DNA of 64,000 nucleotides from Polaromonas sp. (GTDB taxonomy: Bacteria; Pseudomonadota; Gammaproteobacteria; Burkholderiales; Burkholderiaceae_C): NCBI GenBank assembly GCA_013298815.1, contig JAAFJF010000008.1, forward strand, positions 1-64,000. The letters run 5' to 3'. The translations under genes and the position numbers were made by a program. The first letter of the stretch is position 1. Each line of letters begins with the position of its first letter. Shown here piece by piece: positions 5,968 to 7,859 of the stretch. The notes under the pieces were generated by a model that did not search any database, was not told where the DNA came from, and saw only the letters and a list, made by a program, of their open reading frames with translations.

Positions 5968-6474
5968 TCAAGATGCTGCTAAAAGCTTCTCAAGCAGCGC
6001 ATGCAGCTCTGCAAAATTGGGTTCACCCACGTAGCGTTTCACGATTTGACCCTGCTTATCGACGATATAAGTTGTCGGTGTCAGCTTCACTTCATTCCAT
6101 GCTTTTGCGACAGAACCTGTGTTGTCAATAGCCACTTTGAACGGTAATTTACGCGTTTCTGCATAGTTGACCACGTAGGCTGGTGGGTCGTAGCTCATAG
6201 CTACAGCCACGGTGTCAAAGCCTTTGGTTTTGTATTTGTCGTAGGTGGCGATGATTTTGGGCATTTCCGCCACACAAGTGGTGCAGCTGGTCGCCCAAAA
6301 ATTGACTAAAGTGACTTTGCCTTTAAGGCTGGACGTGTTGATTTTTGAACCGTCTAGCAGTACAAAGGTTGATTCTGGCGCTGGGGTGACGCCAGTTCCA
6401 ACAAAAACATAAGCGCCTACGGCTAGCACCACGGCGGCAACGCCAGCATAGATAAATTTGTTCATAAAAGACAT
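5968..6474 (-). CDS. TlpA-like thioredoxin-fold protein
   Basis: Membrane-anchored periplasmic thiol reductase or disulfide carrier. An N-terminal hydrophobic helix (about residues 7-25) is followed by a TlpA/ResA thioredoxin domain with the active-site motif WATSCTTC, cysteines 64 and 67, and the cis-proline region KLTPTTYIVDKQG. Family members reduce apocytochrome c or copper-protein thiols. The neighbouring cytochrome c' gene makes cytochrome maturation plausible but unproven. Start ATG 6474; ATG 6465 is an alternative. Confidence 0.87.
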   Translation of the reverse strand: MSFMNKFIYAGVAAVVLAVGAYVFVGTGVTPAPESTFVLLDGSKINTSSLKGKVTLVNFWATSCTTCVAEMPKIIATYDKYKTKGFDTVAVAMSYDPPAYVVNYAETRKLPFKVAIDNTGSVAKAWNEVKLTPTTYIVDKQGQIVKRYVGEPNFAELHALLEKLLAAS

Positions 6475-6524
6475 TTTCTCAGGTAATTCTTGGTCAGTGC
6501 AAGACTTGTGCTACAGTTGACAAC

Positions 6525-6602
6525 ATGCAAATCGCGAAGTTCAGCTTCTTTTACTTTTATTTTTGGTTCTCAGTCCCCGGCGGACGAGAGGCAAGCACTT
6601 GA
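6525..6602 (+). CDS. Aromatic-rich leader peptide of DAHP synthase
   Basis: A 25-codon ORF, ATG at 6525 to TGA at 6600. Codons 6-15 encode FSFFYFYFWF: six Phe, two Tyr, one Trp and one Ser. This is the composition expected of an attenuation leader sensing charged aromatic tRNAs, comparable in logic to the pheA leader of enterobacteria. It ends about 30 bases before a rho-independent terminator and 130 bases before the DAHP synthase start. I see no strong ribosome-binding site in front of the ATG, so efficiency of translation is uncertain. See the attenuator entry. Confidence 0.8.
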   Translation: MQIAKFSFFYFYFWFSVPGGREAST

Positions 6603-6666
6603 AGTAAACCCCAAGCAAGCCCTTCTCGAACAAACCGCCAGACACCAGTCTTGGCGGTTTTTTTTT
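6579..6666 (+). promoter_or_regulatory. Transcription attenuator upstream of DAHP synthase
   Basis: Terminator: AAACCGCCA at 6632-6640 pairs with TGGCGGTTT at 6652-6660, extended inside by GAC/GTC, followed by a run of T to 6666. Antiterminator: GGCGG at 6579-6583 can pair with CCGCC at 6635-6639, and CGAGAGG at 6585-6591 with CCTTCTCG at 6621-6628. The two structures share CCGCC and exclude each other. A ribosome stalled on the aromatic codons (6540-6569) leaves 6579-6591 free for the antiterminator; one reaching the stop codon at 6600 covers it and the terminator forms. Confidence 0.8.
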
Positions 6667-6731
6667 GCCCATATTTTTACTTATTTATTTTTCGTTTTAT
6701 TTATTCTCAACAGTTTTACAGGAGTGATGAC

Positions 6732-7859
6732 ATGACAAACACCGCAAACGAGCCTTGGTATCCAAAAAACGTTCATAGCAATGACAGAACCAGTCAAACC
6801 GACGACGAACGCATCAAGGACATCACCGTGTTACCGCCTCCAGAACATCTCATCCGTTTTTTCCCGATTCAGGGTACAGCCGCTGAATCATTGATCAGCA
6901 ACACCCGCCAAACCATCCATAACATTATGGTTGGTACAGACGACAGGCTCTTGGTCATCATGGGCCCATGCTCTATTCATGACCCTATTTCCGCACTCGA
7001 GTACGCTAAAAAGTTGTTGGCACAGCGCGCTAAGTATGCCGGTACGCTCGAAATCGTCATGCGCGTGTACTTCGAAAAACCACGTACCACCGTAGGTTGG
7101 AAAGGCTTGATCAACGACCCGTACTTGGACGAAAGCTACCGCATCGACGAAGGCCTGCGCATGGCGCGCCAGTTGTTGATTGAAATCAATCGTCTTGGTT
7201 TGCCTGCAGGCAGCGAGTTTTTAGATGTCATTTCACCGCAGTACTTGGGTGATTTGATCAGTTGGGGCGCGATTGGCGCGCGCACGACTGAAAGCCAAGT
7301 CCACCGCGAACTGGCTTCTGGCATCTCCGCACCAATAGGTTTCAAAAATGGAACCGATGGCAACATCAAAATCGCGACAGATGCGATTCAAGCCGCCGCC
7401 GGCGGACACCACTTTTTGTCAATCCATAAAAATGGCCAAGTGGCGATTGTGCAGACCAACGGCAACCCAGACTGCCACGTTATTCTGCGTGGCGGCAAAG
7501 CGCCCAATTACGACGCGGCCAGCGTAGCAGCAGCTTGCAAAGACCTAGTCGCTGCTAAGTTGCCACCTACCTTGATGGTAGATTGCAGCCACGCCAACAG
7601 CAGCAAACAGCACGAGAAGCAAATCGACGTTGCCAAAGACATCGCCGCACAACTCAGCAGTGGCTCAAAAAGCGTGTTTGGCGTGATGGTTGAAAGTAAT
7701 TTGCAAGCGGGTGCGCAAAAATTCACGCCTGGCAAAGATCAGCCATCTGCCTTGGCTTATGGTCAAAGTATCACCGACGCTTGTATCGACTGGGACGACT
7801 CGGTTGGCGTGTTGGAGACACTGTCACAAGGCGTCTTGGCGCGTCGTCAATTGGGTTAA
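6732..7859 (+). CDS. aroG: 3-deoxy-7-phosphoheptulonate (DAHP) synthase, class I
   Basis: First enzyme of the shikimate pathway: condenses phosphoenolpyruvate and erythrose 4-phosphate to DAHP. The 375-residue protein shows class I AroFGH signatures: MGPCSIHD, RVYFEKPRTTVGWKGLINDP, GARTTESQVHRELASG and MVDCSHANSSK. ATG 6732 has AGGAG at the right spacing and gives the family length; the longer open frame starting at 6651 runs through the attenuator terminator and is not real. Which aromatic amino acid feeds back on the enzyme cannot be told from sequence, so the isozyme letter is provisional. Expression is probably controlled by the leader peptide and attenuator upstream. Confidence 0.95.
   Translation: MTNTANEPWYPKNVHSNDRTSQTDDERIKDITVLPPPEHLIRFFPIQGTAAESLISNTRQTIHNIMVGTDDRLLVIMGPCSIHDPISALEYAKKLLAQRAKYAGTLEIVMRVYFEKPRTTVGWKGLINDPYLDESYRIDEGLRMARQLLIEINRLGLPAGSEFLDVISPQYLGDLISWGAIGARTTESQVHRELASGISAPIGFKNGTDGNIKIATDAIQAAAGGHHFLSIHKNGQVAIVQTNGNPDCHVILRGGKAPNYDAASVAAACKDLVAAKLPPTLMVDCSHANSSKQHEKQIDVAKDIAAQLSSGSKSVFGVMVESNLQAGAQKFTPGKDQPSALAYGQSITDACIDWDDSVGVLETLSQGVLARRQLG

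Follow-up and report, generated by a model that had tools for sequence, protein, structure and literature searches.

A probable ribosome-mediated attenuator with Phe, Tyr and Trp codons before a DAHP synthase gene in Polaromonas and related bacteria

Control of a DAHP synthase gene by attenuation has a precedent in C. glutamicum aroR-aroF, reportedly the work of Neshat et al. in 2014. The E. coli pheL-pheA and trpL-trpEDCBA attenuators act on terminal-branch genes, answer to one amino acid each and have Shine-Dalgarno sites, and the E. coli ilvGMEDA and thr leaders carry codons of several end products, either branched-chain amino acids or Thr and Ile. According to the available parts of two reports, the AroR leader of C. 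glutamicum contains Phe-Tyr-Phe and attenuates the DAHP synthase gene in a manner responsive to Phe, not to Tyr (PMC11802643, PMC4046766). The S. meliloti trpL transcript begins at the leader AUG and its translation is leaderless, as stated in the accessible portion of PMC7298713. Candidate motifs before the DAHP synthase genes aroF and aroH of Shewanella have been predicted as regulatory RNA; the sections at hand give no leader peptide for them, and aroF is entered there as ‘attenuator sensing tyr-tRNA’ with reference to E. coli work from 1980 (PMC2659441). A survey of proteobacterial regulons describes trp and pheA attenuation in gammaproteobacteria and, in the part available, names no betaproteobacterial case (PMC5343134), and the main text of a terminator survey, as far as accessible, mentions no aroG, aroF or aromatic genes (PMC2965389). 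Within the portions of the open PMC literature that were accessible, no report was recognised as the betaproteobacterial leader described below. Attenuation of DAHP synthase as such is already known from C. glutamicum; a three-way sensor would be new, if shown.

The locus studied here lies in a window of 64,000 nt, the whole stretch of Polaromonas sp. DNA that was analysed, and comprises the following elements (‘close’ leaders are defined further below).

6509 to 6517, forward strand: extended -10 promoter element TG-C-TACAGT, 7 nt before the leader start codon (from the sequence).
6525 to 6602, forward strand: leader peptide ORF of 25 codons, MQIAKFSFFYFYFWFSVPGGREAST followed by a stop codon (sequence and translation; leader ORF in 24/24 genomes of the family).
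6558 to 6569, forward strand: Tyr-Phe-Trp-Phe codons closing the aromatic cluster (Y in 72, F in 90, W in 79 and F in 99 of 107 close leaders).
6567 to 6576, forward strand: segment 1, UUCUC and GUCC, able to pair with segment 2 as an anti-antiterminator (pairing over 29 sequences).
6579 to 6591, forward strand: segment 2, GGCGGACGAGAGG, containing a copy of the terminator 3' arm GGCGG (fold; GGCGG in 154/169 leaders).
6621 to 6639, forward strand: segment 3, CCTTCTCG...CCGCC, which makes the antiterminator with segment 2 and, through CCGCC, the terminator with segment 4 (folds and counts).
6633 to 6666, forward strand: intrinsic terminator, segments 3:4 plus T tract (sequence, minimum-energy fold, alignment of 29 sequences).
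6720 to 6724, forward strand: Shine-Dalgarno sequence AGGAG of the DAHP synthase gene (from the sequence).
6732 to 7859, forward strand: 3-deoxy-7-phosphoheptulonate (DAHP) synthase, aroFGH type, 375 aa (TIGR00034; solved relatives).

The likeness to C. glutamicum aroR-aroF, one of description, consists in an aromatic-codon leader peptide before a DAHP synthase gene with read-through upon aromatic shortage; that organism, however, is an Actinobacterium, its leader has Phe-Tyr-Phe, and the available text leaves Trp unmentioned and gives a response to Phe, not Tyr (PMC11802643, PMC4046766). This precedent qualifies the statement of the first-pass annotation that aromatic attenuators act mainly on pheA, pheST and trp genes, to which a DAHP synthase gene has to be added (same sources, in part). 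With E. coli pheL-pheA and trpL-trpEDCBA, both named in the accessible part of PMC11802643, the locus shares a leader ORF and alternative pairings that have a segment in common with a T-tailed terminator; unlike them, it concerns the common first step and up to three amino acids and lacks a Shine-Dalgarno site. The S. meliloti trpL leader is leaderless, as the -10 position would suggest for the present one, but it is a Trp leader of trpE(G) in an alphaproteobacterium whose product is reported to act in trans as well (PMC7298713, in part). Codons of several end products in one leader are found in E. coli ilvGMEDA and thr too, the end products here being aromatic.

The 25-codon aromatic ORF noted by the first-pass annotation ahead of DAHP synthase is present and reads MQIAKFSFFYFYFWFSVPGGREAST plus stop at 6525-6602. 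Among the ATG-started ORFs of 12-45 codons in the 64-kb window it is the only one with at least seven aromatic residues in ten; six ORFs have at least five in ten, and of these just the leader ORF then has a terminator. Ten shuffled windows contained zero ORFs with 7/10 aromatic residues and zero with 5/10 followed by a terminator. The combination is not due to chance: in relatives the orthologous gene is again preceded by leader and terminator, whereas 0/13 of the second paralogues in the sampled genomes have both; before one of these paralogues (L046) there is an ORF reaching five aromatic residues in ten, but without a T-tailed hairpin.

The downstream protein scores 522.9 bits with TIGR00034 (aroFGH; cut-off 173.2), and the 21 solved relatives listed are all DAHP synthases by name, with the Phe-regulated E. 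coli enzyme near the top. In a sample of 40 genomes, own included, 37 have the enzyme, and 29 of the 37 carry leader and terminator ahead of the best match: 24/24 from the own family and 5/13 from other families of the order. The leader is absent ahead of the best match in the remaining eight (G024, G027, G028, G031, G032, G033, G036, G039). Locus L029 has none. A covariance model (R1) built on the 29 leaders and searched with strict filters matched 79 places in 78 genomes of an even sample of 300 from the order, 76 of them directly upstream of DAHP synthase. Since 224 of the 300 have the enzyme at E <= 1e-60, about a third of these have a detectable leader, a share which is a lower bound because the filters were strict. 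Among 274 genomes of the class, R1 gave 10 matches, five ahead of the enzyme, three of those in the own family. The matches before other genes, without DAHP synthase (3/79 in the order, 5/10 in the class), all have E of at least 0.002, and none of the eight holds up. Named loci were fetched by protein alone: among the best 80 of 594, 79 included upstream sequence and 75 of those a leader, three of them identified by eye, under names including Polaromonas, Variovorax, Limnohabitans, Acidovorax, Ramlibacter, Rhodoferax, Hydrogenophaga, Comamonas and Aquabacterium; the four without it, again among the best 80 of 594, are two Cupriavidus and two Polynucleobacter.

Two records stand apart. L192, filed as Solimonas sp. 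SE-A11, a gammaproteobacterium by name, has a DAHP synthase 79% identical and the leader MSISRAYYFGYWSPASGGRRARA, which would reflect either horizontal transfer or a misnamed record. A weak R1 match (E 0.0073) on the reverse strand of L214, at about 1500-1700, belongs to a genome from a different order; immediately downstream on that strand is a frame that by eye is acetolactate synthase-like. The match has a T-tailed hairpin preceded by Leu/Val/Ile-rich codons and is probably an unrelated branched-chain attenuator.

For the analysis of codons, 182 loci minus 10 duplicates yielded 172 distinct leaders, divided by enzyme identity into a close group (at least 72% identical, 108 leaders) and a distant group (below 72%, 64 leaders). 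Phe occurs in 172/172, Tyr in 164, Trp in 121 and all three in 120; entry had required at least five aromatic residues in ten for all but seven of the 182 loci, a rule that skews the aromatic total and not the split between Phe, Tyr and Trp. Counting positions back from the last core aromatic codon, the cluster in the close group mostly closes with Tyr-Phe-Trp-Phe. Coding in the close leaders is conserved with synonymous change: third bases vary at Tyr in position -3 (TAC 51, TAT 21) and at Phe in position -7 (TTT 24, TTC 23), and it is therefore the amino acid that is kept. The last core codon favours TTC (85 TTC vs 14 TTT), as fits a need to pair with GAGAG. The part after the core differs among relatives in frame and sequence (VPGGREA, VQADERQ, SSKADER).

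Trp is the most narrowly placed of the three. Its codons start 11-24 nt before segment 2 in 118 of 131 instances, and outside this interval Trp makes up 0.4% of residues; Phe and Tyr are not so confined (Phe 381 inside, 374 outside; Tyr 146 vs 137). Trp lies within the interval in 93/107 close leaders, at its usual position -1 in just 79, and therefore shifts place yet is retained. This retention, together with Tyr in 107/108 close leaders, speaks against an attenuator for which Phe alone (perhaps Tyr) is the signal, like C. glutamicum aroR-aroF, and in which the Trp and Tyr codons add nothing. Such a device would agree with the presence of Phe in every leader and of Trp in only 121, among them 23/64 distant ones, with the response to Phe and not Tyr reported for the Phe-Tyr-Phe leader of C. 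glutamicum (PMC11802643, in the part available), and with a separate leader-like ORF at trpE (GAW, then P or L, then WR, or a close variant, at 10/20 loci; see below), and we consider it possible, though somewhat short of probable. The first-pass annotation suggested that one device could sense all three end products. As regards coding, this fits most of the close group (all three residues in 98/108) and fewer of the distant one (22/64); a response to all three amino acids we infer from the retained codons, and would put no higher and no lower than an even chance.

Some leaders depart from the common pattern. Five (L159, L164, L172, L185, L188; L159 and L188 are named Aquabacterium) have His codons within or adjoining the cluster, as in FWHFH; their segment 2 is shifted and reads CCGGCG, for which CGCCGG would be a possible partner. 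Others are degenerate: in L115, L119 and L125, from three genomes of family f44, GGCGG and terminator are kept with few aromatic codons, a single aromatic residue in L119, as if the sensor were decaying.

The promoter element provides the likely 5' end of the transcript. In 101/108 close leaders TAnnnT is found 6-8 nt before the start codon, against 2.4 expected in shuffles. The TG extension accompanies it in 99 of these, and the hexamer is TACATT in 70. A Shine-Dalgarno-like 4-mer at the scanned distance occurs in 0/108 close leaders. The position of the -10 element and the absence of a Shine-Dalgarno sequence suggest that the leader transcript of the close group is leaderless, with transcription starting at or beside the leader AUG. 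In the distant group the -10 element fits in only 26/64 leaders (Shine-Dalgarno-like 4-mer in 4/64), and leaderless starts are therefore not claimed there. The first-pass annotation had treated a start downstream of 6666 as fatal to its proposal; the -10 element would place it beside 6525 instead.

An own promoter of the gene between 6667 and 6731, with the terminator serving only to end a short upstream transcript, has in its favour that this 65-nt gap between terminator and gene is AT-rich and that the leader start site is read from sequence only. A crude consensus scan revealed no promoter-like site in the gap (6667-6731) and caught just part of the terminator (6653-6669), though this general scan, which requires a -35 box, found no site at the leader either. 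The copy of GGCGG at a near-fixed distance from the aromatic codons would, however, be useless in a plain terminator, and this arrangement is in our view very unlikely. We likewise regard as highly improbable that the product is a functional small peptide or a trans-acting small RNA, like S. meliloti rnTrpL/peTrpL, with cis control being minor. A terminated leaderless RNA of ~140 nt would indeed resemble rnTrpL, the 5' end of which is the trpL AUG (PMC7298713, in part), but what is conserved here are the aromatic codons, the segments and the terminator, while the post-core part varies in frame and sequence and the linker between segments 2 and 3 is poorly conserved.

Cis control through alternative RNA pairing is in line with the folds. 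The terminator, first reported at 6632-6666, was found at 6633-6666 as AACCGCCAGAC-ACCA-GTCTTGGCGGTT with a nine-T tract and is contained in the minimum-energy fold. The competing antiterminator is equally borne out, 6579-6591 being able to pair with 6621-6628 and 6635-6639. On its own, 6572-6640 folds as antiterminator (-19.7 kcal/mol, z -2.0, 5/200 shuffles as low), and the complete leader reaches -48.7 kcal/mol (z -4.7, 0/200 shuffles as low). In the genus of the window (L001-L004) the 1:2 hairpin can be lengthened by 7 bp, one base shorter in L003, through pairing of UUUACUU at 6550-6556 with AAGUAAA at 6602-6608, which joins codons of the aromatic cluster to bases at and past the stop codon. 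Searching 6450-6740 against Rfam (release 15) identified no family at gathering score; a loose threshold gave six sub-threshold matches, the top one scoring 20.2 bits where the gathering score is 43. The stability of the fold would suit a riboswitch or a protein-binding antiterminator, with translation playing no part in sensing, but aromatic coding is kept through synonymous changes and no Rfam family reached gathering score, making such a sensor barely credible.

The spacing of these elements was determined in 169 of the 172 leaders (L074, L120 and L155, which are without terminator pattern, were left out). Segment 2 is exactly GGCGG in 154/169, and the 15 leaders without it were omitted from the spacing counts. 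Segment 2 and the last core aromatic codon are 11-15 nt apart in 128/154 leaders; this distance and the 2:3 pairing bear out the first-pass view that codon position and pairing segments fit ribosome-stalling attenuation. The stop codon lies 6-32 nt beyond the start of segment 2, and more than 20 nt beyond in 91/154, including the leader of the window. A ribosome at these more distant stop codons may leave GGCGG exposed behind it, and would cover just the proximal half of segment 2. Segment 3 starts 11-56 nt (median 32) after the stop codon. The nucleotides flanking the core, one just ahead of GGCGG in segment 2 and the other just behind CCGCC in segment 3, form a pair in 110/154 leaders, against an expectation of 92.

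In the alignment of 29 sequences, window included, the seven core terminator pairs are kept in 100% of cells, while UUCUC:GAGAG is paired in 91.7% and GUCC:GGAC in 71.1%. The 1:2 plus terminator structure has a covariation score above all 500 shuffles; that of the antiterminator is reached by 41/500, and its number of pairs changed on both sides by 8/500, the controls in both cases ignoring kinship. In this fixed alignment the proximal antiterminator helix is 64.8% paired, four of its five pairs being changed on both sides in some sequence; in L026, A-U replaces G-C in the 2:3 helix and leaves U-G in the terminator. Leader codons and alternative pairing are thus kept in relatives, the check proposed in the first-pass annotation, with covariation itself being modest overall, because the core helices barely vary, and for the antiterminator not clearly beyond the shuffle control. 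In 83% of the 169 leaders the 2:3 interior has a lower folding energy than the average of its shuffled versions (mean z -1.1); for 1:2 the share is 86% (mean z -1.2). A longest-common-substring comparison of segment 2 with the terminator arm was weak (37% of 169 at p<=0.05), owing to the presence of the motif in the regional composition and to misplacement of the last aromatic residue when an aromatic follows the core, and was superseded by the anchored counts.

Judged by its sequence, the DAHP synthase gene is very probably under the control of a ribosome-mediated transcription attenuator, of the classical trp/phe type. According to this model, transcription would start at the leader AUG or one or two nucleotides from it, and the leader would undergo translation as a leaderless mRNA. 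A shortage of charged tRNA-Phe, -Tyr or -Trp would make the ribosome pause in the aromatic cluster with its leading edge just short of segment 2, 2:3 would form before segment 4 is made, and this antiterminator would let RNA polymerase continue into the DAHP synthase gene. With all three plentiful, the ribosome would reach the stop codon and cover segment 2, or at least its proximal half, so that the 3:4 terminator forms. If there is no translation, 1:2 pairing should also favour the terminator, at least in the sequence of the window itself.

The leading edge of a ribosome lies 11-13 nt past the first base of the A site. Stalled ribosomes were modelled with this edge, the RNA behind it being treated as unavailable, which is a simplification, and segment 4 as not yet made. 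Stalls at codons -3 to -1 gave mean antiterminator probabilities of 0.95-0.97 in 99 close and 55 distant leaders. At codon 0 the value for the close leaders is 0.54-0.95 depending on the edge chosen, and past the last aromatic codon it decreases to 0.17-0.48 at the next codon and 0.03-0.13 at the one after; the 55 distant leaders drop less sharply (0.31-0.61 and 0.18-0.27). In the model, the antiterminator thus falls steeply past the last aromatic codon, and the cluster therefore ends where stalling would no longer be useful. Ribosome geometry had led us to expect only the last four aromatic codons to act, which was rejected, as earlier codons also free segment 2 in the model: codons -9 to -4 of the close leaders have means of 0.76-0.96 depending on the edge, and F6-F11 of the window leader 0.99-1.00. 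The modelled limit is sharp only on the downstream side of the cluster. With the ribosome at codons 1-3 of the window leader, the antiterminator is nearly absent (0.02-0.05), and lack of translation should therefore terminate as well. For the full transcript at equilibrium, the model favours the terminator at every ribosome position (means at least 0.71; 1.00 at 25/25 codons in L001). The switch is therefore predicted to be kinetic, decided before segment 4 is transcribed.

The regulatory setting was assessed by profile searches in which E. coli was positive in both controls. The Trp repressor (PF01371) exceeded its cut-off in 0/40 relatives, a single weak match falling below it. For the TyrR DNA-binding domain (TIGR04381) the cut-off was exceeded in 1/40, a genome that is 65% complete, and two further matches were weak and fell short of it. 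In the stretch searched upstream of the pheA domain, an ATG ORF with five aromatic residues in ten was found at 0/20 loci. At trpE, a different leader-like ORF, with the motif GAWPWR or GAWLWR or one close to these, is present at 10/20 loci (L223-L228, L230, L231, L234 and, in the own genome, L232, about 340 nt before the matched trpE start), a terminator being flagged in one of the ten (L223); this ORF is likely to represent a separate Trp attenuator. With a Trp motif in the trpE leader and no aromatic leader in the stretch searched for pheA, DAHP synthase is thus the only one of the three genes found to have a leader that could report Phe and Tyr.

In its fullest form, our proposal is that one leaderless leader reads the charging of all three aromatic tRNAs via a conserved Tyr-Phe-Trp-Phe block at the last useful stall positions and so would set entry into the shikimate pathway by the scarcest end product, in a lineage whose sampled members are without TrpR and mostly without TyrR; on balance we find the odds of this evenly divided. 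If true, it would explain how entry into aromatic synthesis is controlled without the E. coli repressors TyrR and TrpR in the Comamonadaceae and their relatives, a large betaproteobacterial group, and the leader would be a compact natural candidate for a sensor of three aromatic amino acids.
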